From NCBI GenBank assembly GCA_025966315.1, contig JAOPUZ010000040.1, positions 1-64,000 of the forward strand: 64,000 nucleotides of DNA. The letters are read 5' to 3'. How positions within the stretch are numbered: the first letter of the stretch is position 1; the number at the start of each line of letters is the position of its first letter. The DNA is from Frankiales bacterium (GTDB taxonomy: Bacteria; Actinomycetota; Actinomycetes; Mycobacteriales; Jatrophihabitantaceae). Below the pieces are notes generated by a model. It saw only the letters and a program-made list of their open reading frames with translations, searched no databases and was not told the DNA's origin. This document shows positions 5,843 through 64,000 of this stretch, in pieces. The position numbers and the translations under genes are program-made.

Positions 5843-8479
5843 ATGCGCCCGTCGAAATCGCGTCTCCTGCTCGTCGCCCTCCTCGCAATGACCGTCGCCG
5901 TGCCGCTTTCCTTGCCGCTCGGTGCCGATGCGGCCGCAACCTCGCTCAGGGCCAAACACCCGGTCACGGCAGCAAGCACCACTACCGCCGCCAAGGCCAA
6001 CGCCGCGAGCCAGCTTTCGGCCAGCACCCGACTGGCCGACCGGCGCAGCGTGGTGATCGGCGACCGGTTCTACGAGGTCGGCGCGGAGGACGGCAGCTAT
6101 CCGGCAGAAGGATTCCACACGCGCGGCGAAATGGGCGGCTTCTGGACCCAGCCGATAAAGCTGTTGGACGGCGTCTGGTTCGGCGTGGACGGCAACTGGC
6201 TCACCGCCTCGAAGTACACCAACGCCTGGGGTTACGCCCAACTTGAGCTCGGCACGCATGACGGCGTGAGCATCACCCGGACCGACTTCGCGCCGGACGG
6301 GATCCGCGCCGGCCTGATCGGGCTGACCCTCACGTCGCCCAGCACCCGCACGCTGAATTTGGCCCTGGCGGCCCACTCGGAATTGATGAAGGTGTACCCG
6401 TGGGGCGAGACGACGCCAAGCCAGACCACCTATAACTTGCCGGACACCGGGGCCTTCAACGGCAAGCAGCTTCAATTCCGTGAGGTCGGCACGCCGCCCG
6501 TCACGAACGCCGAGAAACACGACTATGCCGCCGTGGTCGGTTCGTCGATGACCCCGACCTCGTACGCACTGGGTCCGAACTTCCGCGGACCACAGTCAGC
6601 CGACGTGACCTGTCCCGCCTCCGGCCCCAACGCACCGGAGCAACCCGCCCGCTGCGATGACACCGCCTACGGCAAGGGCACCGGTGGGCAGCTGAACTAC
6701 CAGGTTCACGTCCGCAAGGGTACGTCGACCATCTGGTTTGCCGTGGGCGGTTCGGATCAGGGCCTGGCCGCCGCGACGCAGGCGCAACGCACCGCGCTGG
6801 CCAACCCGGCAAAGCTGCTGGCGATCAAGAAAGCCCAGCGTCAGCAAGTGAATTCGCACACCGACGTCAGCTTGCCCGGCGATCCGTTGCTGCAGCAGAG
6901 CGTTGCGTGGAGCAAGCAGAACCTCGCCGACTCGGTGCAACAGGCCAATGACCTGCAGGTCAGAGTCAGCAACGCCGGGACGGTCTACCCACCGCCATCC
7001 GGAACCGTTGCCCAGGCCCGCTGGATCGGCGCCGGTTGGCCGGATTACCCATGGATCTTCGGCACCGACGGCGAGTACATCGCGTTCGCCGCCGTGGCCA
7101 GCGGCCAGTTCAGCGCGATCGAGAACCACCTTCGCGCCTTGCGCAATGTCAGCCTGGTGGCCAACGGCAATAGCGGCAAGGTCGTGCATGAGGTCACTCC
7201 GGACGGCCAGGTGTACTTCGGGGCCAACAACGACGCCGGGAACACCGACGAGACGGCCAAGTTCGCTAGTGCTGTGGCCCTGGTCTGGCGTTGGACGGGT
7301 GACAACCGGTTCCGCGACGAGATGTACACCTTCGCCAAGGCCAACTTGGCGTACATCTACCGGGTTCTGGACGTCGACGGCGACGGCTGGCCCGAAGGAC
7401 TCGGCAACGTCGAGCGGCCCGGTATGGGCGAGGAAAAGCTCGACAACACCGTCTACACCATTCGCGGGCTGCGCGATCTGGCCGATATGGCGGCCAGCAA
7501 GCGCGACACCGCCACCTACCGCTGGGCCACCACCCGGGCCGACGATCTGGAGAGCCGGTTCGACGCGACGTGGTGGGAGGGTGGCGACGCGCACCAATAC
7601 GCCGACTCACTGGCCAATCCGGACAACACCAAGGTCTTCCAGCGGCACTGGATCGGTGTCACGCCGGTCGAGGCGGAGATCGTCCGGCCCGGGCAGCCGG
7701 CCGGCCCGTTGGCACCGAAGGCACACGCCGAGGAACTGGTGGCCAGTCGAGAATCCCCTTGTTACTCCGGTCAGTACGGGCTGTACCACACCGGCACCGG
7801 TGCGACCACCGATCCGGCCGGAAACCCCGGCCCGACCTGCGATTCCACCGTGTCGAGCGTGGCCAGCCTGCGTCAGGTCTTCACCCTGAACACGTCGATC
7901 ATGGCCGTCGCCGAGGGGGCCCTCGGCCGGATGGCGCCCGGGCAGTTGCCGCGCTACACCGACGGCAATGCCACGGTGCAGCTCGACCCGGCCGTATCCG
8001 AACTGCCGGGCGCGATGCCGGAGATCGCCCCGTCCCCAGATTTCGTCGCCAACATCGACCAGAAGTTCACCGAGCGGTCGCAGGCCTTGCAAGCGTGGGG
8101 TACCTACGGCGTGCTCTGGCCGGTCGTCCATTTTGAACTGGGTGTGGCTCCCGACCTGGGCCGGGGTCAGGTCGCGGTCATCCCCCAGATCCCTGATGGA
8201 CAGCCCAGCGTGTCGGGTCGTGACATCCGGCTCGGGCGCAGCTCGATCGACGTCACCGCGCGACGAACCGCTCATCAGCTGAGCACGGTGGTGACCCGAC
8301 ACGGCAAGCTCGGCGTCACGCTAGGCGCGGTGCTGCCGCTCCAGAGCACCGTGCACTCGGTGACCCTTAACGGCCGCCGCGTCGCGTACCGGCTGGTGGC
8401 CACCGACCGCGGGCAGGAGGTGCAGGTTCGCGCGGCGGGCCACGGCGCTACCAGCCGGTTGACGATCACGCTCGACTGA
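5843..8479 (+). CDS. Secreted six-hairpin (alpha/alpha)6 glycosidase-like protein
   Basis: An 878-residue exported protein. The start ATG at 5843 is preceded by AGAGG and followed by an arginine/lysine-led signal peptide (RPSKSRLLLVALLAMTVAV) that ends at an AxA-like site near residue 30. Residues about 330-720 look like the helical six-hairpin fold of amylo-alpha-1,6-glucosidase/GH15/GH63-type enzymes, with acid-rich motifs GTDGEYIAFAAV, NTDETAKFASAVALVWRW and EEKLDNTVYTIRGLRDLADM; the end is a small beta domain. It probably acts on an external oligo- or polysaccharide, substrate unknown. It is monocistronic and divergent from thrS. Nine-base tandem repeats begin on its last codon and stop. 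Confidence 0.85.
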   Translation: MRPSKSRLLLVALLAMTVAVPLSLPLGADAAATSLRAKHPVTAASTTTAAKANAASQLSASTRLADRRSVVIGDRFYEVGAEDGSYPAEGFHTRGEMGGFWTQPIKLLDGVWFGVDGNWLTASKYTNAWGYAQLELGTHDGVSITRTDFAPDGIRAGLIGLTLTSPSTRTLNLALAAHSELMKVYPWGETTPSQTTYNLPDTGAFNGKQLQFREVGTPPVTNAEKHDYAAVVGSSMTPTSYALGPNFRGPQSADVTCPASGPNAPEQPARCDDTAYGKGTGGQLNYQVHVRKGTSTIWFAVGGSDQGLAAATQAQRTALANPAKLLAIKKAQRQQVNSHTDVSLPGDPLLQQSVAWSKQNLADSVQQANDLQVRVSNAGTVYPPPSGTVAQARWIGAGWPDYPWIFGTDGEYIAFAAVASGQFSAIENHLRALRNVSLVANGNSGKVVHEVTPDGQVYFGANNDAGNTDETAKFASAVALVWRWTGDNRFRDEMYTFAKANLAYIYRVLDVDGDGWPEGLGNVERPGMGEEKLDNTVYTIRGLRDLADMAASKRDTATYRWATTRADDLESRFDATWWEGGDAHQYADSLANPDNTKVFQRHWIGVTPVEAEIVRPGQPAGPLAPKAHAEELVASRESPCYSGQYGLYHTGTGATTDPAGNPGPTCDSTVSSVASLRQVFTLNTSIMAVAEGALGRMAPGQLPRYTDGNATVQLDPAVSELPGAMPEIAPSPDFVANIDQKFTERSQALQAWGTYGVLWPVVHFELGVAPDLGRGQVAVIPQIPDGQPSVSGRDIRLGRSSIDVTARRTAHQLSTVVTRHGKLGVTLGAVLPLQSTVHSVTLNGRRVAYRLVATDRGQEVQVRAAGHGATSRLTITLD

Positions 8480-53219: not shown

Positions 53220-55967
53220 TCAGACGCCGGCCGGTTCGGCATCGACACTGCCGCCGAGGTAGGCAGCAACGACCCCCGGATGCTGGCGAACATCCTCCGG
53301 TGATCCGAAGGCCACGGTCTGGCCGAAGTCCAGGGCCAGCATCTCGTCCGACAACGACGACACCAACGCCACGTCGTGCTCGATGAGCAGCACGGCGAGG
53401 TTCCATTCGTGGGCCAGGCGCCGTACGACCGCGGCCAACTCGACCCGCTGTTGCTCGTCCAGCCCAGCCGCCGGCTCGTCGAGTAGCAGGATCTTCGGTC
53501 CCGACGCCACGGCGCGGGCAATCGCGACCAGCCGCCGCGTCCCGTAGGACAGTTCACCGGGCAACTTGAGCAATGAGTCGGTCAGGCCAAGTTCTTGCAC
53601 CGCGAGGGTGGCGGTTCTGGTCAATTTCCGGCTGCCTGGGTGGACGACGTCGCGCAGCCACGCCCACCAGTCCCGACGGTCGCTGGCGGCAAGCAGATTC
53701 TCCAGCACCGTCATGTCCTCGAACAGCTCGAGGGACTGGAACGACCGAGCAAGCCCGAGTCGAGCGCGCTGCTTGGGCGAGGCCTGCGCGATCTCGCGGC
53801 CATCCAGCCGCATCGACCCGCCACGAAGCGGCACGAAGCCCGTGATCGCGTCGATCAAGGTCGTCTTACCGGCGCCGTTAGGGCCGATGATGCCCAGAAT
53901 CGTGCCTGATCGCAGCGTGAAACTGACGGTCTCGACGGCGGTGACCACGCCAAAGACCACAGTGGCATCGGTGATCGCAAGTTCGACCGGTTGGCGGGCG
54001 GCCACCGAATCGTCGCGCGACTCGACACCGTCGATCTCGCGATGCGAGGCCAGAAATTCAGCCGGGTCGGCGAACCTCGGCGCCCGCGCGGGCTGACGGA
54101 GAGACTGGCGGATCAGCCGGACGATGCGACGCCGCAGTTTGTACTGCAACGGCATGAAGCCATCCGGCGCCAGGGTGACGATGAGCAGAGTCAGCACGCC
54201 GAAAACGAGGGTCACCGGCGTATGGCTGCTGCCCGGTATGTAATTGAAGATCTTCGTCATCGGTCCGCCGGGTTGCCCCAGGGCGCCTACCAGTGGGCCG
54301 AGCACGAAGCCGACACCGCCAAGGACGGAGTTCGACACCAGCTGGATGGATGTGAAACTGTCGAACTGGGACAGCTGGGCGAACGGAAACATCATCATGG
54401 TGAGGATGCCGCCGAGTCCGGCCACGACCGAACCGAAGCAGAACGCGGCCAGCTTCGCCCCGCGAACGCTGATACCCAGCGCCGTGGCGGCCCGTTCGTT
54501 GGCGCGTACCGCCAGCAAGCGCCGCCCGGCGCGACCCCGCCGCAGGTTGAGAATCCCCAGACAAAGCAAGCCGAATACCACCAGCGTGAAGATCGCATAC
54601 CGCCGTGGGTTCAGGGTGGCGTCGAGGCTGAACCCGAAGAGGTTGACCCCGCCGACCAACCCGAAGCCGCCGGTGGCTCGGAGGTAGGACGGCAGCAGGG
54701 TCACGATGCAGACGTTGAACGCCAGCGTGGCGATGGCCAAGCTCATTCCCCGGGCGCGCAGCGCGGCCGCGCCGATGATCGCACCCATCGGCAACACCGC
54801 CAGCGCACCGAGCACGATCGCGAGCAGCGTCGGTACGCCGTGACTGATCAACTGCGCCGCACCCACCGCGCCCAGACCGGCCAACGCCCACTGCGCCAAC
54901 GAGATCTGGCCGCCCAGACCGGTCACGACGACGACGGAAAGCAACGCCACCGCTGCCGTTATGAACGCCGTCAACGACTGAACCCAGTCGGTCGGCAATA
55001 TCAGCAGCACGACGACGCCGACGGTGAGATACACGGCCGACCGACGCCAGGGAATGTCACCGCTGGTGACTCGGGGCAGCCGTTCCTGCAGGAAACTGCG
55101 AAGCGGCAGCCCACGCCCACGGGCCACCACGACGAGCATGATCACGACGAAGGGCACGATCTGCCCGATGCCCGAACCCAATCCGCCGAGATGGACGTAC
55201 CTCTGCAACTCGGCCTGCAGGATCCCGATCAGCAGTCCCCCGGCCAGCGTCAGCGGGAACGAGCTGAGATTCGCGATCACCGCGGCCGCGATGGCCGGCA
55301 GCAGCAAGGACGTCGCCAGTCCGATGGACACGCCCAACGTCGGGGCCAGCAGAATCCCCGAGAAGCAGCTCAGCATCGCACCGAGCACCCAATTCACGCT
55401 GGCCACCAGATTGGGCGACCAGCCGACCGTCGCGAGTGCGTCGGCATTCTCCGAGACGGCCGTGGTGGCCAGCCCGAAACGGGTGAACTTGTAGACGGCC
55501 CAGACGATGCCAGTGAGCAGGAACGCGGCGCCGATGACGATGAACCGGTCGATGCCCACCCCGAAGCCGGCCAGCTTCACTGAATGTTGCGGTAAGAAGG
55601 CTTCGGCCGCGTAATTCGCGTCGGCGCGCCAATGCAGACCGGCCAGACCTTGCAGGACGACCAACAAAGCCAGCGTCAGGACGACCCGGATGAGCTGGCT
55701 GGCGTTCGCCAAGGGCCTGGTCAGCAAGTAGGCGAGATAGCCGGTCAGACCAGAGAGGGCCAAGCCGGCGATCATGGCCAATACCAGCGGTACGCCGTTC
55801 CGGTCGTGCAACTGCCAGTAGGCGAAAGTACCGACCATACCCATCGCGCCGCCGGCGAAGTTGAGGACACCCGAGCCGCGGTAAACGAGCACAATGCCCA
55901 TCGAAACCAGCGCGTATGCCGCTCCGGTACCTGCTCCGAGAATGGCAAAGAGCAGGACGGTCGACAT
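53220..55967 (-). CDS. Branched-chain amino acid ABC transporter: LivH-LivM-LivG fusion
   Basis: One 915-residue polypeptide joins three subunits. Residues 1-290: LivH permease (AAYALVSMGIVLVYRGSGVL, NFAGGAMGM). Residues about 310-620: LivM permease (GLGGQISLAQWALAGLGAVG, ILNLRRGRAGRRLLAVRANE, AFCFGSVVAGLGGILTMMMF). Residues about 655-915: LivG ATPase with Walker A GPNGAGKTTLID, signature LSYGTRRLVAIARAV (LSYG in place of LSGG), Walker B ILLLDEPAAGLD and switch His in LLIEHDVALV. No LivF ATPase or periplasmic LivJ/K binding protein is in the window, so the system must draw on distant genes. Such fusions exist in actinobacteria. Confidence 0.92.
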   Translation of the reverse strand: MSTVLLFAILGAGTGAAYALVSMGIVLVYRGSGVLNFAGGAMGMVGTFAYWQLHDRNGVPLVLAMIAGLALSGLTGYLAYLLTRPLANASQLIRVVLTLALLVVLQGLAGLHWRADANYAAEAFLPQHSVKLAGFGVGIDRFIVIGAAFLLTGIVWAVYKFTRFGLATTAVSENADALATVGWSPNLVASVNWVLGAMLSCFSGILLAPTLGVSIGLATSLLLPAIAAAVIANLSSFPLTLAGGLLIGILQAELQRYVHLGGLGSGIGQIVPFVVIMLVVVARGRGLPLRSFLQERLPRVTSGDIPWRRSAVYLTVGVVVLLILPTDWVQSLTAFITAAVALLSVVVVTGLGGQISLAQWALAGLGAVGAAQLISHGVPTLLAIVLGALAVLPMGAIIGAAALRARGMSLAIATLAFNVCIVTLLPSYLRATGGFGLVGGVNLFGFSLDATLNPRRYAIFTLVVFGLLCLGILNLRRGRAGRRLLAVRANERAATALGISVRGAKLAAFCFGSVVAGLGGILTMMMFPFAQLSQFDSFTSIQLVSNSVLGGVGFVLGPLVGALGQPGGPMTKIFNYIPGSSHTPVTLVFGVLTLLIVTLAPDGFMPLQYKLRRRIVRLIRQSLRQPARAPRFADPAEFLASHREIDGVESRDDSVAARQPVELAITDATVVFGVVTAVETVSFTLRSGTILGIIGPNGAGKTTLIDAITGFVPLRGGSMRLDGREIAQASPKQRARLGLARSFQSLELFEDMTVLENLLAASDRRDWWAWLRDVVHPGSRKLTRTATLAVQELGLTDSLLKLPGELSYGTRRLVAIARAVASGPKILLLDEPAAGLDEQQRVELAAVVRRLAHEWNLAVLLIEHDVALVSSLSDEMLALDFGQTVAFGSPEDVRQHPGVVAAYLGGSVDAEPAGV

Positions 55968-56554: not shown

Positions 56555-57388
56555 TCACCCACCGACCGCAGGGCTAGGGCCAACCGGCCTGCCTGAGATC
56601 GACCGGGATCGCTGGATAAGCCAGTCGCGCCAGGCGTCGAGCCCGTCGCCGCGGATCGCGGAGACCGGCAAGACCTGCGCGGCGGGGTTGACGACCGTGA
56701 CGTCGCGTTCGAACCGGGCAACGTCGAAGTCCACGTACGGCAACAGGTCGATCTTGTTCAGGAGGATTAGCGTCGCCGAGGCGAAGATATGCGGATACTT
56801 CAGGGGTTTGTCCGCTCCTTCGGTGACCGACATGATGAGCACACGGCAGTCCTCGCCCAGGTCGAACATGGCCGGGCACACCAGGTTGCCGACATTCTCG
56901 ATCAGGATGACACCACTGGCCGGAGCCAAGGTGTGCAGCGCCGTGCGGATCATGGAAGCGTCCAGGTGGCAGCCCGCACCGGTATTGATCTGCAGCACCG
57001 GAGCCCCGGCGGCCTTGATCCGATCGGCGTCGAAGGTGGTCTCCTGGTCGCCTTCGACAACGCACACCTCGGTGTCGGTTCCCAGCTGCCGCACCGTCCG
57101 TTCGAGCAAGGTCGTCTTGCCGGATCCAGGTGAGCTCATGAGGTTGACGGCGATGATGCCGCGCGCCTCGAGCCAGCCGCGATTGCGCTCGGCGAGCGCG
57201 TCATTCCTGGCCAGTACGCGTTCTTCCAGGACGAGCGTCTCGGTCCCGGCCGCCGGCTGCGGAGCGTGGGTATGCCGGCCGCCGCCATGATCGTGATCGT
57301 GGTGGTCGTGCGCCGCGGCCGGCACCTCGCCGCGCAGGTCGATCACCCGGGTGCCGCCGTCGGCGCCGCAGCCACAGGTGGCGCACAC
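56555..57388 (-). CDS. hypB: Hydrogenase nickel incorporation GTPase HypB
   Basis: A 277-residue SIMIBI-class GTPase that delivers nickel to the [NiFe] centre. The N-terminus C2-AT-C5-G-C7 is the high-affinity Ni-binding CxxCxC-type motif, followed by a His-rich stretch (AAHDHHDHDHGGGRHTH) for nickel storage. GTPase motifs: P-loop MSSPGSGKTTLLE, VVEGDQET, the metal-site CHLD block TGAGCHLDASM, and LLNKIDLLPYVDFD (NKxD). Its GTG overlaps the hypA stop by one base (TAGTG). It faces the hydrogenase structural genes across a 230-bp regulatory region. Confidence 0.97.
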   Translation of the reverse strand: MCATCGCGADGGTRVIDLRGEVPAAAHDHHDHDHGGGRHTHAPQPAAGTETLVLEERVLARNDALAERNRGWLEARGIIAVNLMSSPGSGKTTLLERTVRQLGTDTEVCVVEGDQETTFDADRIKAAGAPVLQINTGAGCHLDASMIRTALHTLAPASGVILIENVGNLVCPAMFDLGEDCRVLIMSVTEGADKPLKYPHIFASATLILLNKIDLLPYVDFDVARFERDVTVVNPAAQVLPVSAIRGDGLDAWRDWLIQRSRSISGRPVGPSPAVGG

Positions 57389-57720
57389 TAGCGACTCACC
57401 TCAACAGAAATGATCCGAAGTTCATCGCCCGCCAGTACCTCCACGGCCGAGCTGCCGCACGCGCATAAGAGGATGCGATCGTGCAGCAGAAATTCTTCCG
57501 TACAGCTCGCGCAACGCGCTCGGCCTGGTGGTTCGTCGATATTCAGCCCGGCGCCCTCGAGCGCGGTGCCGGCCGCCGCGAGTTCGAAGCAGAAGCGCAG
57601 CGAGTCGGTCGAGACGCCGGCCAGCTTGCCTACCTCCAGCCGCACTTCGGTCACCTGCCGGTCACCGGTACGTGCGGTGATGGTCTCCAGAACGCTCTCG
57701 GCGATGGCAAGTTCGTGCAT
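57388..57720 (-). CDS. hypA: Hydrogenase nickel incorporation protein HypA
   Basis: A 110-residue metallochaperone that hands nickel to HypB and the large subunit. It begins MHELAIAESVLETI with the essential N-terminal Met-His-Glu Ni site. The zinc site is CASC ... LCACG near residues 70-90; the second cysteine pair is CxC rather than the textbook CxxC, a form I recall from other actinobacterial HypA. ATG 57720 has GAGGAG upstream; an in-frame extension to 57741 is less likely. First gene of a hypA-hypB operon divergent from the hydrogenase. Confidence 0.96.
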   Translation of the reverse strand: MHELAIAESVLETITARTGDRQVTEVRLEVGKLAGVSTDSLRFCFELAAAGTALEGAGLNIDEPPGRARCASCTEEFLLHDRILLCACGSSAVEVLAGDELRIISVEVSR

Positions 57721-57805
57721 CCCGCGCTCCTCGTCCCGCATGGTGGGCTGACACCGTTTGCCCAGCCTAGGCCGGGGATTCGGGCGTCCCGGGGTTCAAT
57801 AATCG

Positions 57806-57828
57806 GGAATTCCGGGAATCCCGGATTC
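57806..57828. promoter_or_regulatory. Nested overlapping palindromes between hypA and the hydrogenase genes
   Basis: Within 23 bp there are perfect palindromes GGAATTCC (57806-57813), TTCCGGGAA (57810-57818), CCGGGAATCCCGG (57812-57824) and GAATCCCGGATTC (57816-57828). The cluster is about 86 bp before hypA and 126 bp before the hydrogenase small-subunit start, a likely operator for both transcripts. Confidence 0.5.
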
Positions 57829-57953
57829 GGCGAGAAAGGACTCCGCCGCAGCCCGCGCCAGCGATCTATCGTCGGGACAGGCCCCGTCCTGATCTCCCCG
57901 TTCGCAGGTCGGGCGGCGCCGGTCCAGGCGTTGCCTACGGAAGGCTCAAGCCA

Positions 57954-59009
57954 ATGCTCACCGAGGAAGCCAAGAAGGCCGAAGACACCCTGATCCACGT
58001 GCTGTGGATAAACGCCGGCCTCAGCTGCGACGGCGACTCGGTGTCGCTGACCGCGGCCACCCAACCCAGCATCGAGGAGATCGCCCTCGGCGCGCTGCCG
58101 GGCTTGCCGCAGATCGCGGTGCACTGGCCGCTGATCGACTTCGAGTGCGGCCCGAACGGCGGTGCCGACGACTTCCTGGAATGGTTCTTCAAGGCTGATC
58201 GCGGCGAACTCGAACCGTTCGTACTGGTGGTCGAGGGGTCGATCCCCAATGAGAAGCTGCATGCGGAGGGCTACTGGTGCGGATTTGGCAACAACCCGGC
58301 CACCGGCCAGCCGATGACCACCAGCGAGTGGCTCGATCGACTGGCGCCCAAAGCTACCGCTGTCGTCGCCGTGGGCACCTGCGCAACCTATGGCGGCATC
58401 CACGCGATGGCAGGCAATCCGACCGGCGCAATGGGGGTACCTGATTACCTCGGCTGGGATTGGAAATCCAAGGCCGGCATTCCCATCGTCTGCGTCCCTG
58501 GCTGCCCGGTACAACCGGACAACATGTCCGAGACCTTGACCTATTTGCTGTACATGGCCACCGGCCAGGCGCCGATGATCCCGCTCGATGACGCGCTGCG
58601 GCCCACGTGGTTGTTCGGGCAGACCGTTCACGAGGGCTGTGACCGCGCCGGGTACTACGAGCAGGGCGATTTCGCGACGGAATACGGCTCGCCGAAATGC
58701 ATCGTCAAGCTGGGTTGCTGGGGCCCGGTGGTGAAGTGCAACGTGCCCAAGCGCGGCTGGATGAACGGCATGGGCGGTTGCCCGAATGTAGGCGGCATCT
58801 GCATCGGCTGCACGATGCCCGGCTTCCCGGACAAGTTCATGCCCTTCATGGACGAACCGCCGGGCGGCAAGCTGTCGACCAACGTGGTGGGCGTCTACGG
58901 CAATGCGGTCCGCCGGCTCCGAACCATCACCACGCACACCATCGACCAGGAGCCCAAGTGGCGTAGGCGCGGACCGCAGTTGACCACCGGCGCCACCCGT
59001 ACCTGGTGA
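57954..59009 (+). CDS. hhyS: [NiFe] hydrogenase small subunit, group 1h (high-affinity, actinobacterial)
   Basis: A 351-residue Fe-S subunit that passes electrons from the NiFe site. The start of the proximal cluster site reads NAGLSC25DGD28SVS: Asp28 stands where other hydrogenases have Cys, as in the group 1h enzyme from Ralstonia with a 3Cys-1Asp proximal [4Fe-4S]. Further ligands: GTCATYGG, VCVPGCPVQPDNM, TVHEGCDRAGYY, KCIVKLGCWGPVVKCNVPKR, GGCPNVGGICIGCTMPGFPD. There is no twin-arginine signal, so the enzyme faces the cytoplasm. RBS GGAAGG. Leads an operon of at least six genes. Such enzymes oxidise atmospheric H2 in starvation. Confidence 0.96.
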   Translation: MLTEEAKKAEDTLIHVLWINAGLSCDGDSVSLTAATQPSIEEIALGALPGLPQIAVHWPLIDFECGPNGGADDFLEWFFKADRGELEPFVLVVEGSIPNEKLHAEGYWCGFGNNPATGQPMTTSEWLDRLAPKATAVVAVGTCATYGGIHAMAGNPTGAMGVPDYLGWDWKSKAGIPIVCVPGCPVQPDNMSETLTYLLYMATGQAPMIPLDDALRPTWLFGQTVHEGCDRAGYYEQGDFATEYGSPKCIVKLGCWGPVVKCNVPKRGWMNGMGGCPNVGGICIGCTMPGFPDKFMPFMDEPPGGKLSTNVVGVYGNAVRRLRTITTHTIDQEPKWRRRGPQLTTGATRTW

Positions 59010-59040
59010 TCCGTCCGATCTCACAACGAAGGAGGCGGCG

Positions 59041-60831
59041 ATGACGTCGACGACCCCAAGGCCTAGCACCACCAGCAACGCCAGCGATCTCGTCGAGATG
59101 TCGTGGGATCCGATCACCCGCATCGTCGGCAGCCTGGGTATCTACACCAAGATCGACTTCACCCAGCGCGTGGTGGCCGAGTGCCACAGCACCAGCTCGA
59201 TCTTTCGCGGCTACTCGATCTTCATGAAGGGCAAGGACCCCCGCGACGCGCACTTCATCACCAGTCGGATCTGCGGAATCTGCGGCGACAACCACGCGAC
59301 CTGTTCGTGCTACGCGCAGAACATGGCTTACGGCGTGAAGCCACCGCCCTTGGGCGAATGGATCATCAATCTGGGTGAGGCCGCCGAATACATGTTCGAC
59401 CACAACATCTTCCAAGAGAATCTGGTCGGGGTGGATTACTGCGAAAAGATGGTCGCCGAGACGAACCCCGGCGTCCTCGAACTGGCGAATCACACCGAGT
59501 CACCGCATGCGGCCGACCACGGATACCGGACGATCGGTGACATCATGCGGTCGCTGAACCCGTTCACCGGCGAGTTCTACCGTGAAGCGCTGCAGGTCAG
59601 CCGGATGACCCGCGAGATGTTCTGCCTGATGGAGGGGCGGCACGTCCACCCGTCGACGCTGTACCCGGGCGGCGTCGGAACCGTCGCGACGATCCAGCTG
59701 ATGACCGACTACATCACCCGGCTGATGCGCTACGTGGAGTTCATGAAGAAGGTCGTACCCATGCACGACGACCTTTTCGACTTCTTCTATCAAGCGCTGC
59801 CAGGCTATGAAATGGTCGGCAACCGGCGCATCCTGCTGGCCTGCTGGGGATCCTTCCAGGATCCCGACCATTGCAACTTCGACTACAAGGACATGACCAA
59901 CTGGGGACGCAAGATGTACGTGACCCCCGGCATCGTGGTGGACGGCAAGTTGATCACCACCGACCTCGTCGAGATCAACCTCGGTATCCGGATCCTGCTC
60001 GGCTCGTCCTATTACGACGACTGGGCCGACCAGGAGATCTTCGTCAAGAACGACCCGCTGGGCAACCCGGTGGATCGCCGGCATCCGTGGAACCAGCACA
60101 CCAACCCCAAACCGCAAAAGCGCGATCTCGACAACAAGTACAGCTGGGTCATGTCGCCACGCTGGTTCGACGGCAAGGATTACCTCGCGCTCGACACCGG
60201 CGGCGGCCCACTTGCTCGGCTGTGGTCTACGGCGCTGGCCGGCCTCGTCGACATCGGCTACCTCAAATCGACCGGCAACAGCGTGCAGATCAACCTGCCC
60301 AAGACCGCCCTCAAAGGTCCGGTCGAGTTGGAATGGAAGATCCCGAAATGGAGCAACACGATCGAGCGTAATCGGGCGCGCACCTATTTCCAGGCCTACG
60401 CCGCGGCGGCAGCACTGCACTTTGCCGAGAAAGCCCTGGTCGAGATCCGGGCCGGGCGTACCAAGACCTGGGAGAAATTCGAAGTGCCGGACGAGGGCAT
60501 CGGCTGTGGTTTCACCGAAGCGGTACGCGGGGTGCTGTCCCACCATATGGTCATTCGGGACGGCAAGATTGCGAACTACCACCCGTACCCGCCGACGCCG
60601 TGGAATGCCAACCCGCGGGACAGCTACGGCACTCCGGGGCCGTACGAGGACGCCGTTCAGGGGCAGCCGATCTTCGAAGAGAATGACCGGGAGCACTTCA
60701 AGGGCATCGATATCATGCGTACGGTACGAAGCTTCGATCCGTGTCTGCCCTGCGGAGTGCACATGTATTTGGGCGAGGGTAAGAAACTCGAACTGCTGCA
60801 CTCGCCGACCCAGTCCGCCGGTGTCGGGTGA
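59041..60831 (+). CDS. hhyL: [NiFe] hydrogenase large subunit, group 1h
   Basis: A 596-residue catalytic subunit. The L1 motif is RICGICGDNHATC (residues about 76-88) and the L2 motif DPCLPCGVHMYLG near the C-terminus; these four cysteines bind Ni and Fe. Group 1h traits are the long insertions and SSIFRGYSIFMKGKDPRDA around the site. The protein continues 18 residues past the L2 His, so the usual C-terminal peptide must be removed by a HycI/HyaD-type protease, which is not in the window. Very strong RBS (GGAGG). It overlaps the next gene by 4 bp (GTGA). Confidence 0.97.
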   Translation: MTSTTPRPSTTSNASDLVEMSWDPITRIVGSLGIYTKIDFTQRVVAECHSTSSIFRGYSIFMKGKDPRDAHFITSRICGICGDNHATCSCYAQNMAYGVKPPPLGEWIINLGEAAEYMFDHNIFQENLVGVDYCEKMVAETNPGVLELANHTESPHAADHGYRTIGDIMRSLNPFTGEFYREALQVSRMTREMFCLMEGRHVHPSTLYPGGVGTVATIQLMTDYITRLMRYVEFMKKVVPMHDDLFDFFYQALPGYEMVGNRRILLACWGSFQDPDHCNFDYKDMTNWGRKMYVTPGIVVDGKLITTDLVEINLGIRILLGSSYYDDWADQEIFVKNDPLGNPVDRRHPWNQHTNPKPQKRDLDNKYSWVMSPRWFDGKDYLALDTGGGPLARLWSTALAGLVDIGYLKSTGNSVQINLPKTALKGPVELEWKIPKWSNTIERNRARTYFQAYAAAAALHFAEKALVEIRAGRTKTWEKFEVPDEGIGCGFTEAVRGVLSHHMVIRDGKIANYHPYPPTPWNANPRDSYGTPGPYEDAVQGQPIFEENDREHFKGIDIMRTVRSFDPCLPCGVHMYLGEGKKLELLHSPTQSAGVG

Positions 60832-61775
60832 CCGGGTCAGAAGCCGGTGGTGCCCTACCCACGGACTGGCGCGCGAGCGGTGAGCGCATCGACACCCTGC
60901 TCGACGCCAGCTCGGCGGGCGGGATCGTAGCGCGCGAACGAGCGGAAGAGCTCGTCCGCCTCGTCGCCGATTTGTATGGCGCCGGCTTGCAGCGGCTGCT
61001 CGAAGTCATGCACGAGCGGGGTCATCTCGATGACGCCACGCTCGACGCGCTGGCCGCCGACGACCTGATCGCCAGCCTGCTGCTCGTGCACGGCTTGCAT
61101 CCCTACGGCGTCGAGTTCCGCATCGAGCAGGCGCTGGCGAGCGTCCGCCCGTATCTGGGCTCGCACGGCGGCGACGTCGAACTGCTCGAAGTAACCGAGG
61201 ATGCCGTGGTCCGATTGCGCCTGCTCGGTAGTTGTGATGGCTGCCCGTCCTCATCGGTCACGCTGCAGCTGGCGGTCGAAGGGGCCATCGAAGCGGCCGC
61301 ACCGGAAATCACCGGTATCGAGGTCGAGACACCGGCCACGCAAGACCACGGCAACGTCATCCCGCTGGCATCGTTGTTTTCCCGCGTCACGCTCAGCGCC
61401 GGCAGCGAATACCCAGGCGGCTCGTGCTGGCAGGATCTTCCCGAGCTGCTCGCTTTGCAGCCCGGATCCGTTATGCAACTCGACGTCGGCCACACCCCGA
61501 TCCTCGCCTGCCGGGTCGGCGCCGACCTGTTCGCGTTCAGTGACAACTGTGCCCGATGCGCCGAGCCGTTGCGGGGCGCAACCGTCGCCCGTCGTCTCGG
61601 CGGTGCTGCCGACGATGCGGTGCTGACCTGTCCGGCGTGCCGCGCGCATTACGACGTCCGGCGGGCCGGTGCGTGTCTCGACGACAGCGCACTGCACTTG
61701 GAACCGCTTCCGTTGCTGGCCGACGGCGTCTCGGTATCCATCGCCGTGCCGACCCCGACCGCGACCTCGACATGA
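60828..61775 (+). CDS. NifU C-terminal domain / Rieske-like fusion, hydrogenase-associated
   Basis: A 315-residue protein. Residues 1-90 are helical. Residues about 95-175 form a NifU C-terminal (Nfu) domain, LGSHGGDVELLEVTEDAVVR and LLGSCDGCPSSSVTLQLAVE with the CxxC Fe-S carrier motif. Residues about 205-300 resemble a Rieske fold, but the ligand loops are NCARCAEPLRGA and LTCPACRAHYDVR: Cys-x-His becomes Cys-x-Arg and Cys-x2-His becomes Cys-x2-Cys, leaving two CxxC pairs. It may carry a 4Cys cluster or zinc. Electron transfer from or cluster delivery to the hydrogenase is inferred from the operon. Confidence 0.9.
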   Translation: MTGSEAGGALPTDWRASGERIDTLLDASSAGGIVARERAEELVRLVADLYGAGLQRLLEVMHERGHLDDATLDALAADDLIASLLLVHGLHPYGVEFRIEQALASVRPYLGSHGGDVELLEVTEDAVVRLRLLGSCDGCPSSSVTLQLAVEGAIEAAAPEITGIEVETPATQDHGNVIPLASLFSRVTLSAGSEYPGGSCWQDLPELLALQPGSVMQLDVGHTPILACRVGADLFAFSDNCARCAEPLRGATVARRLGGAADDAVLTCPACRAHYDVRRAGACLDDSALHLEPLPLLADGVSVSIAVPTPTATST

Positions 61776-61785
61776 TCGCCGCGCG

Positions 61786-62457
61786 ATGAACGCCCCCGGC
61801 AGCGCCGGTCCCCCGCTGGCAGCGCTGCGGCGGGTTACCCGGACGCGGCCGCAGCAGAATCCCGGCGAGCGGTGCGAGATGTGTGCCGCGCCGATCGCCG
61901 ACGAACACCAGCACGTGGTCAACTTGGACAGCCGAGGACTGATGTGCACGTGCCGGGCGTGTTACCTGCTGTTCACCGACGAGGTCGCGAATCTGCACTA
62001 CCGCGCCGTACCCGAGCGGTACCTGTCCTTCGCAGAGTTCACGCTGGACGCCCGCGCCTGGGACGAGCTACAGATACCGGTGGGGTTGGCTTTCCTGTTC
62101 CGCAACTCCGTACAAGCGCGAACGATCGCGTTCTACCCGGGCCCGGCGGGCGCTACCGAGTCCGAGCTTGCGTTAGCGGCATGGCAGCGGATCGTCGACG
62201 ACAACCCCTCGCTCGCGGTGCTGCGCCCCGATGTCGAGGCGCTGCTGGTCCGCCGCACGGACGGCCCGCACGGATCCTGTTATCTCGTACCGATCGACGC
62301 CTGCTATGAACTGGTCGGCCGGTTACGGATGCTGTGGCGCGGCTTCGACGGTGGCCAGCAGGCCCACCAGGCGATGGACGATTTCTTTGCCACCGTGCAG
62401 CACCGTAGCCGTCCCGCGCCCGTGAACGCTGCGTCCATCAGCGGCGGCCCATCATGA
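61786..62457 (+). CDS. DUF5947 family protein, hydrogenase-associated
   Basis: A 223-residue protein from ATG 61786. It opens with ERCEMCAAPIADEHQHVVNL and LMCTCRACYLLFTD, two pairs CxxC/CxxC that probably bind zinc or an Fe-S cluster (treble-clef-like), followed by an alpha/beta domain (LQIPVGLAFLFRNSVQARTI, GRLRMLWRGFDGGQQAHQAM). DUF5947 genes occur in group 1h hydrogenase operons; no function is known. It lies ten bases after the NifU/Rieske-like gene and overlaps the next gene by four bases. Confidence 0.9.
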   Translation: MNAPGSAGPPLAALRRVTRTRPQQNPGERCEMCAAPIADEHQHVVNLDSRGLMCTCRACYLLFTDEVANLHYRAVPERYLSFAEFTLDARAWDELQIPVGLAFLFRNSVQARTIAFYPGPAGATESELALAAWQRIVDDNPSLAVLRPDVEALLVRRTDGPHGSCYLVPIDACYELVGRLRMLWRGFDGGQQAHQAMDDFFATVQHRSRPAPVNAASISGGPS

Positions 62458-63137
62458 GCAACTACGCCTTCTCGCTGCTCGACGTGTTCGCTGAACCGTA
62501 CGCGGTAGCCCCGCAACTCACGGCGCGGCTGCGCGTCCAGGAGTTCACGGGCCAGCTCATTCACGCGATCGCGCTACGCTGCCAGGTACGTATCGAGCCG
62601 CAACGCCGTCGCTACGACGAGGCAGAACAGGATGGTCTACGCGGGCTGTTCGGCGAGCGGGACCGTTGGATGGACACCCTGAAGCCGTTCCTCTGGATGC
62701 AATGCAACACCACCGTGCAGGGATTCGTGGACGCGACCGAGGTCGACCTCGTACTGCCCTGCACTTACGACTTCGACGTCGTCGGCTCGCGCTATCTGCA
62801 CGCACTGGACGCGGGCACCGTGCCGTTGACGCTGCTGTTCTCCGGCACGGTTTTCACTCGGGGCAGCAACGGATTCGGCGTCGAGCAGGTCCCGTGGGAT
62901 TGTGAGGCGCGCTACGACCTGCCGGTGCCGGTGTGGCGGCAGATGATCGAATCCTATTTCCCGAACACCGGCTGGCTGCGTCTTGATCGCGATGTTCTGA
63001 GATCCCTCGCCGATTACCGCGCACGGCAGGGACTGACGACCTGGGACGAGACCATCCAGTCGCTGCTGGCCGGTCCGGCACTCGCCGGCCGGCTCGACCG
63101 CGGGAAGCTGACCGGTCACGACGGGGTGCTGCCATGA
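62454..63137 (+). CDS. DUF6084 family protein, hydrogenase-associated
   Basis: A 227-residue protein that looks mostly beta-stranded (YAFSLLDVFAEPYAVAPQLT, ALRCQVRIEPQRRRYDEAEQ, VDLVLPCTYDFDVVGSRYLH, GTVPLTLLFSGTVFTRGSNG) with a helical end. It contains no cysteine clusters. The DUF6084 family is found next to hydrogenase genes in actinobacteria, function unknown. ATG 62454 overlaps the DUF5947 stop (ATGA), and its own stop overlaps the next start (ATGA), so it belongs to the same tightly coupled operon. Confidence 0.88.
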   Translation: MSNYAFSLLDVFAEPYAVAPQLTARLRVQEFTGQLIHAIALRCQVRIEPQRRRYDEAEQDGLRGLFGERDRWMDTLKPFLWMQCNTTVQGFVDATEVDLVLPCTYDFDVVGSRYLHALDAGTVPLTLLFSGTVFTRGSNGFGVEQVPWDCEARYDLPVPVWRQMIESYFPNTGWLRLDRDVLRSLADYRARQGLTTWDETIQSLLAGPALAGRLDRGKLTGHDGVLP

Positions 63138-64000
63138 ACCTCGATCAGGTCCGCGAGATCGCGGACGCGGTGTTGTACGAGGGCTACCTGCTCTATCCGT
63201 ACCGAGCCAGCTCCAGCAAGAATCAATCCCGCTGGCAGTTCGGCGTACTCGGGCCGCCGCGAGCGTTGCCGACCAGCTTCAGCGAAGCTCCGGCCATGTC
63301 CATGCAGTGCCTGCTCCGGCCGCGGGCGCCGCGGGCGAAAGTGACGATCCATCTGCGTTTTCTGCAGTTGCAGGCTCGTGAGGTTCAGCGCCTCGATGCC
63401 TCCGGCCGCTACGAACCGGTCGACTCCCTCGACGTGGACGGCGCCGACGTGCTGAGTTGGGACGAGGCGGTCGAGCGGGAGATCACGCTGCCCGAGGTGC
63501 GTCTGGACGGCGCCACCGACTATCCCTTGAAGTTTGCGGGCGGTTCCTTCGTCGAGCCGGTGATCAACGAATCCGGCGTGCTGGTCGGTCGGATTGTCCG
63601 CCGCCGATGGCCACTCGCCGCTCGGCTTCGAACCGATACCGACGTCGACGACGACGGCCTCTACCGGCTGTCGATACAGGTCGACAACAAGCATCCCCGA
63701 CCGACGGCCGACAAGGACGGCGCGATCCGGGTCTCACTGATCGGTGCGCATTTGCTTGTCGAGGCGCATGAGGCTGCGTTCGTATCGCTGCTCGAACCAC
63801 CTGAGGAAATGAGCCAGGCCGCCGAACGTTGCCGCCAGCAGCGGTGTTTCCCGGTGCTGGTGGGTGAGCGAGGTTCGACTGACGCGGTACTCGGCGCACC
63901 GATCATCCTGTACGACTACCCCGAGATTGCCGTCCAAAGTCAGGGTGCACTCTTCGACGCAACCGAGATCGACGAGATTCTGACGCTGCGGGTCATGACG
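63134..64000 (+). CDS. Hydrogenase-operon hypothetical protein (cut by window edge)
   Basis: ATG 63134 overlaps the DUF6084 stop and the frame stays open for 289 codons to the window end. The product is beta-rich and acidic: ADAVLYEGYLLYPYRASSSK near the N-terminus, MQCLLRPRAPRAKVTIHLRF, VEREITLPEVRLDGATDYPL, LYRLSIQVDNKHPRPTADKD, then FVSLLEPPEEMSQAAERCRQ. The Y-E-G-x-L-x-Y-P-Y-R opening is shared with proteins of unknown function in group 1h hydrogenase clusters, as I recall. No metal-binding motif is seen. Probably an assembly or partner protein of the hydrogenase. Confidence 0.85.
   Translation, partial: MNLDQVREIADAVLYEGYLLYPYRASSSKNQSRWQFGVLGPPRALPTSFSEAPAMSMQCLLRPRAPRAKVTIHLRFLQLQAREVQRLDASGRYEPVDSLDVDGADVLSWDEAVEREITLPEVRLDGATDYPLKFAGGSFVEPVINESGVLVGRIVRRRWPLAARLRTDTDVDDDGLYRLSIQVDNKHPRPTADKDGAIRVSLIGAHLLVEAHEAAFVSLLEPPEEMSQAAERCRQQRCFPVLVGERGSTDAVLGAPIILYDYPEIAVQSQGALFDATEIDEILTLRVMT

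Follow-up and report, generated by a model that had tools for sequence, protein, structure and literature searches.

Contig JAOPUZ010000040.1 of a Frankiales bacterium is 123,187 bp long, and its first 64,000 bases, hereafter the window, run into a gene cluster. On balance, we read this cluster as probably the structural operon of a high-affinity [NiFe]-hydrogenase of group 1h (Hhy), with an accessory module dedicated to the enzyme, a DUF6893 anchor and the roles proposed below. Comparison across loci shows this operon to include DUF6893, a mini-protein predicted to cross the membrane once, and this is the main new result. The operon with four unknown open reading frames (ORFs) was already known, as PHG066-069 (PMC4377017) and as a set of “four hypothetical proteins” (PMC13332983), and so was the idea that DUF5947 is a carrier. 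Our literature search, which left subscription journals mostly outside its reach, found no paper naming DUF5947 or DUF6893. Much of the atmospheric H2 taken up by soils is attributed to group 1h hydrogenases, the enzyme lets soil bacteria live on traces of H2 in air, and the genes described here form its conserved partner set; a conserved one-pass membrane gene within the operon provides a single, small and testable candidate for an anchor.

In the window, the plus strand carries the genes of the small subunit HhyS (57954-59009; PF14720 and PF01058), the large subunit HhyL (59041-60831; PF00374), the NifU-like protein HhyE with a GSCDGC motif and a C-terminal CxxC...CxxC domain (60828-61775; PF01106, 6e-22), the Cys-rich accessory protein DUF5947 (61786, an ATG, to 62457; PF19372, 1.6e-76, 256.4 bits for a cut-off of 25), the accessory protein DUF6084, a predicted beta-sandwich (62454-63137; PF19562, 5.1e-95, 317.4 bits, cut-off 25), and a 465-aa protein that we call EDGE (63134-64531, or L002:7134-8531), which has no Pfam family and whose frame closes beyond the end of the window at 64000. 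HhyS and HhyL are separated by 31 bp and HhyE and DUF5947 by 10 bp, and the pairs HhyL/HhyE, DUF5947/DUF6084 and DUF6084/EDGE each overlap by 4 bp. The sequence-only reading, made from the letters of the window, had judged from the overlaps and short gaps that these six genes are probably made together; the coordinates bear out one tightly packed, co-directional operon, and Pfam confirms the families. Its placement of the locus start at 57388 has to be corrected: 57388-57741 is the gene of the nickel metallochaperone HypA (PF01155, 3.9e-29) on the minus strand, next to that of the nickel insertion GTPase HypB (56555-57388, minus strand; PF02492, and TIGR00073 at 269.6 bits against a cut-off of 121.2), both maturation proteins, so that the plus-strand operon begins at 57954. 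Beyond EDGE, the contig continues with a 39-aa ORF, a maturation protease (contig 64678-65148; PF01750, 1.1e-11), ORFs that we read as HypC-like, DUF6390, HypE, HypD and HypF. HhyL fits the sequence definition of group 1h, with its N- and C-terminal metal-binding Cys motifs (RICGICGDNH and DPCLPCGVH) and its HofG/HhyL orthology; its closest solved structure is HofG (5aa5), and it is 75-85% identical to four reference loci.

The 39-aa ORF is the DUF6893 gene (contig 64546-64665, plus strand; PF21833, 2.4e-15, 56.7 bits for a cut-off of 24.6). It begins 546 bp beyond the window, between EDGE and the protease, with a ribosome-binding site, and encodes one predicted membrane span; lying just outside the window, it was beyond the sight of the sequence-only reading. 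A locus profile, seeded with 12 of the same loci and therefore self-matching by construction (family-level counts below use the Pfam model), found DUF6893 in 85 of 97 hhy loci; two group 2a loci had no match (loci and genomes are designated by L and G numbers). Seven of the 12 loci without it end near EDGE (L034, L042, L072, L084, L110, L111 and L117), and two others, L108 and L109, have a diverged membrane ORF after DUF5947. Among the 84 placed cases, the gene lies in the EDGE-protease interval in 72 and directly after the protease in 12; in 71 of the 72, its start overlaps the EDGE stop or lies at most 30 nt from it. The C-terminus follows the pattern R-Y...M, with the R, the Y and the terminal Met invariant in 85/85 sequences. 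This invariance, together with a pN/pS of 0.305 (pN < pS in 67 of 71 close pairs), argues that DUF6893 behaves like a genuine coding gene. Positive charge is stronger on the C-terminal than on the N-terminal tail in 81 of 84 sequences, from which the C-terminus is predicted to lie inside. Two acidimicrobial loci carry a tandem pair of DUF6893-like mini-genes (L062 4213-4458 and L075 12446-12746), which could form a hetero-oligomeric anchor.

An independent test of linkage with Pfam's own DUF6893 model covered 394 genomes of the class, in which DUF6893 exceeded the cut-off in 63, DUF5947 in 76 and both in 60 (Fisher p 6.6e-52, the kinship of genomes being ignored). Of 64 DUF6893 places over the cut-off, 57 follow DUF5947 on the same strand, 0.35-3.4 kb downstream. 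Among the other seven, three (L142-L144), on contigs that are short or at sites close to a contig end, stand beside the protease, with or without EDGE; that of G150 adjoins a broken hhyS and a protease-like frame, a second copy in G269 is unlinked, and those of G220 and G531 are marginal matches inside long frames. Sixteen of the 76 DUF5947 genomes have no DUF6893 match over the cut-off. Six of these were read, of which L108, L109, L139, L140 and L146 have a diverged membrane ORF after DUF5947, as seen with a lax profile or a hydrophobicity scan, and G182 (L141) has no membrane ORF that we could find. A second sample of 198 genomes drawn from the phylum holds 23 DUF6893 places in 19 genomes, 17 of them within hhy operons; three of the six others adjoin hyp genes or a broken hhyS (G150, G195 and G152), two adjoin a small ORF that by our own reading is putatively HypC-like, and one is unlinked. 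The place in G150, a mycobacterium-like genome, belongs to a decayed hhy locus (L130, ~7281-8439) with a broken hhyS, an intact DUF6893 ORF and a protease-like frame.

The other partners follow the hydrogenase just as closely. The order small subunit, large subunit, NifU, DUF5947, DUF6084, unknown gene and protease recurs in pHG1 of Cupriavidus necator H16 and in plasmids of Mycobacterium, Methylocystis and Streptomyces, the NifU gene being annotated merely as hypothetical in two of these four operons; since these genera share the order, chance linkage is ruled out. Evidence from outside the actinobacteria consists of the Cupriavidus and Methylocystis plasmids; the DUF6893 member of the former scores 38.9 bits, and the corresponding ORF of the latter has no Pfam match. 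When species genomes were scanned with a DUF6084 alignment, 475 relatives came up, the best 80 of which, all actinobacterial judging by the record titles, were kept: DUF5947 and EDGE are present in all of these 80 loci, and HhyL in every one whose upstream sequence was covered. Among the 198 genomes, DUF6084 occurs in 22, DUF5947 in 23 and EDGE in 23, and a group 1h HhyL, called at 65% identity or more from rows picked by hand, accompanies 21/22, 22/23 and 22/23 of these, respectively (Fisher p 5e-25, 6e-27 and 6e-27). The sole carrier without HhyL, G189, has a contig that stops inside DUF5947. Three HhyL rows, truncated or fragmentary, were left out by hand, namely G184 (74% over 313 aa, broken at model position 322), G107 (122 aa) and G130 (74 aa); no DUF5947, DUF6084 or EDGE was found on the stretches read in these genomes. 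Group 2a-like large subunits (39-44% identity) occur in eight of the 198 genomes, of which seven have no complete group 1h gene and neither DUF5947 nor DUF6084, and the eighth, G140, combines the two hydrogenases. Complete reading of two group 2a loci revealed no relative of DUF5947, DUF6084 or EDGE at a domain E <1. The gene-neighborhood comparison proposed earlier for these partners thus upholds their dedication to the group 1h hydrogenase: because HhyL accompanies nearly all carriers, homologs are not commonly seen without hydrogenase genes, whereas their common occurrence without such genes is what had been named as counting against it. In the samples compared, DUF5947, EDGE and, in most cases, DUF6084 accompany HhySL, and none of them was encountered in its absence.

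Variant operons refine this picture. In a rearranged form (L108, L109, L136, L137, L139, L140 and L146), EDGE stands upstream of HhyS-HhyL-HhyE-DUF5947, DUF6084 is absent and DUF6893 moves to the end of the structural genes; the protease follows EDGE in four of the seven loci. DUF6084 is thus dispensable there, and DUF5947 and EDGE stay. One genome, G042, has no DUF5947; its HhyE tail is of low complexity and its contig ends in DUF6084.

The interest of a membrane gene in this operon comes from published work on the group 1h enzymes. The SolV enzyme has no membrane helix or signal peptide, yet it associates with the membrane, apparently an essential condition for high affinity (PMC7174314). 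In 2026, the anchoring subunit was described as not yet identified (PMC13332983), and no paper reporting a membrane-anchor or transmembrane subunit of a group 1h enzyme was found, as judged by titles and the beginnings of abstracts. DUF6893 is a direct candidate for this anchor, by its conserved place and predicted span. We propose that the HhySL core would work in the cytoplasm, where DUF6893 would keep it at the inner membrane face; the basic C-terminal tail of DUF6893 (R-Y ... M-COOH) would face the cytoplasm and bind the complex, and DUF6893 and EDGE would be made together. Scaffolding or docking of the core would fall to EDGE and to DUF6084 with its beta-sandwich. DUF5947 would contribute the one metal-binding Cys site among the accessory proteins that almost all intact loci retain, acting either as the way out for electrons beside HhyS or as a site for zinc or another metal that assembly requires; HhyE would help where its metal motifs are kept, and would not be a universal electron carrier. 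The fullest form of this proposal makes DUF6893 the missing membrane subunit itself, an N-out/C-in helix of roughly 39 residues translated with EDGE. Its invariant R-Y...M tail would recruit the cytosolic Hhy complex and so bring the electron exit, formed by DUF5947 alone or together with HhyE, close to the quinone pool, and in this way DUF6893 would give the high affinity, which is lost on solubilization; this we put forward tentatively, with somewhat less than even confidence.

Several observations weigh against the anchored-module reading. DUF6893 was not found in L030, L112 and L113, where enough sequence is at hand, nor in L141. Methylacidiphilum SolV, which has a working group 1h enzyme, lacks the hypothetical genes found in the Pyrinomonas operon (PMC7174314), so that some or all of the module is not universal. 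Finally, every fold match of DUF5947 falls under Z 4.

The structural part assigned to DUF6084 rests on a model with a pLDDT of 89.7 and a pTM of 0.78, whose VIA matches are beta-sandwich proteins (At1g01470, Z 8.7 over 127 residues; IrmA, 8.1; WxLIP, 8.0; TMEM106B, 7.5), Z values that can reflect merely a common arrangement; we read it as a probable scaffold without a metal site. No Pfam family matches EDGE, and Protein Data Bank (PDB) searches with DUF6084, DUF5947 and EDGE gave nothing convincing (best E 0.14).

The same genes could instead be maturation or assembly factors for the synthesis of an O2-exposed HhySL, with DUF5947, DUF6084, EDGE and DUF6893 no part of the working enzyme, which is quite possible though in our judgment rather doubtful. 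Other O2-tolerant hydrogenases require dedicated assembly proteins, which speaks for this explanation. A rubredoxin case among such proteins is mentioned in PMC6883350. The module also stands directly before the maturation protease and hyp genes, and DUF6893 adjoins the protease or hyp genes in G195 and G152, with no HhyL on the same stretch. Variant operons argue the other way, as DUF5947 and the mini-membrane gene stay with HhyS-HhyL-HhyE and it is EDGE and the protease that move (L138), and a cytoplasmic enzyme would hardly be expected to need an assembly factor that spans the membrane.

A narrower alternative concentrates on DUF5947, which the sequence-only reading had proposed as the missing electron or cluster carrier on account of two CxxC pairs. 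Both pairs are borne out, and the invariant set in 57 aligned sequences is larger: C30, C33, H41, H43, C54, C56, C59 and C173, that is, with a fifth Cys, C54, and with H41, H43 and C173. The motif CxxC...CxCxxC is kept in 101 of 103 loci, including 20 whose HhyE has no metal motifs (see below); in one of the two exceptions the gene is truncated by the start of a contig, and in the other the reading frame is broken. An iron or Fe-S site at C30/C33/C56/C59, with C54 and H41/H43 nearby, would pass electrons from HhyS to quinone, and these ligands exceed the need of one zinc. The idea is not new, MSMEG_2717/PHG067 having been proposed as another electron-acceptor candidate (PMC6883350), where PHG067 is the DUF5947 gene by gene order. 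The predicted fold (pLDDT 88.8, pTM 0.79) points elsewhere: a CxxC knuckle, a beta-hairpin and a helix starting at the second CxxC follow one another, an order that by our own reading weakly resembles a treble clef, which usually holds zinc. Foldseek gave no match at E <= 0.001, and the best VIA matches, all weak, are NosL (Z 3.7 over 51 residues) and the ArfGAP protein centaurin-alpha1 (Z 3.1). No redox family was recognized up to E 10 in Pfam, nor in NCBIfam; compared with rubredoxin-type proteins, DUF5947 has the Cys pairs, and the fold search gave weak treble-clef-like matches only. The carrier proposal therefore stands insofar as the Cys site is conserved as a carrier needs and is weakened insofar as the likeness to a treble clef fits structural zinc or metal handling at least equally; the model leans toward the latter and is also compatible with a redox site, and we regard an electron carrier as unlikely. 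Identity with HybE/HoxT was also considered and gained no support, with no Pfam HybE match up to E 10, no NCBIfam support and no HybE among the fold matches listed.

A further alternative, in which HhyE itself accepts the electrons and the other genes play a secondary part, is improbable: deletion of hhyE in M. smegmatis lowers H2 oxidation, the hucE and hhyE double deletion abolishes it (PMC6883350), and the HhyE of the window keeps its NifU CxxC and its C-terminal CxxC...CxxC, but neither motif is present in 20 of 97 loci, among them the characterized Cupriavidus operon, with at least five changes on the tree, and a choice between electron transfer and maturation was left open by Islam et al. 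in the same paper. The count of 20/97 omits L030, in which DUF5947 follows HhyL by 16 bp with no HhyE between them; this locus remains in the HhyL tree, within a clade entirely without motifs. Since no NifU-like G[STN]CxxC occurs in any frame between HhyL and DUF5947 in the 20 loci, no frameshift hides the motif. On the HhyL tree (80 rows, 15 without motifs, built by a quick method), the trait changes six times, at least five of these changes being forced by well-supported branches and some possibly being regains. With these motifs absent and the Cys of DUF5947 kept, HhyE cannot be an obligatory group 1h carrier and DUF5947 could be, and a universal acceptor role of HhyE is already refuted on this sequence evidence. 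The contrast between motif absence in HhyE and Cys retention in DUF5947, as read from the loci, is new here, and the absence in several lineages separates the two published electron-acceptor hypotheses. The Rieske label previously given to the C-terminus of HhyE does not hold, CxxC...CxxC being present instead of CxH...CxxH ligands; similarity to Rieske ferredoxins is limited to weak NCBIfam matches with E 0.01 or worse. TAL-effector repeats returned by a PDB search with the HhyE alignment had no passing stretch and were judged compositional; the NifU matches were kept. As a separate observation, an orphan hydrogenase small subunit lies near the hhy operon of Actinoplanes and Virgisporangium in seven loci, followed in five by an HhyE-like gene with no large subunit between (L020 2746-4121, L026 2669-4110, L030 4258-5654, and L035/L036 at ~19.1-20.7 kb); L022 and L025 have the orphan small subunit only.

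In the surroundings of the operon, a DUF6390 gene (PF19927, 1.2e-99) lies on the minus strand at contig 66354-67130 (L002 10354-11130), between the hydrogenase operon and hypE, and a 915-aa frame on the minus strand at 53220-55967 of the window encodes a branched-chain amino acid type permease fused to an ABC ATPase. A scan of the locus for promoters and terminators gave no signal above shuffles.

Among known systems, the operon of the actinobacterial-type hydrogenase (AH, HofKG) of C. necator H16, PHG064-PHG070, has the same gene order as the window, with HhyL 78% and HhyS 67% identical, and a DUF6893 member after the protease (pHG1 66753-66854). It differs in its HhyE, which has neither the NifU CxxC nor the C-terminal domain; the Cupriavidus enzyme is reported as low-affinity and was purified from the cytoplasm (PMC7174314). 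The Hhy operon of M. smegmatis (MSMEG_2722-2718 and MSMEG_2717) encodes, by its published description, an HhyE with both the NifU CxxC and the C-terminal CxxC pair (PMC6883350), and the mycobacterial loci compared with the window carry the same module and DUF6893. The group 2a hydrogenase Huc likewise oxidizes atmospheric H2 and is tied to the membrane through a non-catalytic protein (HucM stalk, HucE; PMC10017518), but HucM has ~189 aa with a coiled-coil stalk whereas DUF6893 has 39 aa and one span, and the two group 2a loci read show no match to DUF5947, DUF6084, EDGE or DUF6893. In size and in coiled-coil content DUF6893 is thus not a HucM, and it may still work like a tether. In one group 2a locus, an ORF between the small and large subunits (L127 6708-7256), with a hydrophobic stretch and a likely helical tail, is perhaps a HucM-like tether. 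By its description, the operon of group 1l hydrogenases also encodes short predicted membrane proteins, HylTM1-5 (PMC9561532); there, five such proteins lie between the large and the small subunit.

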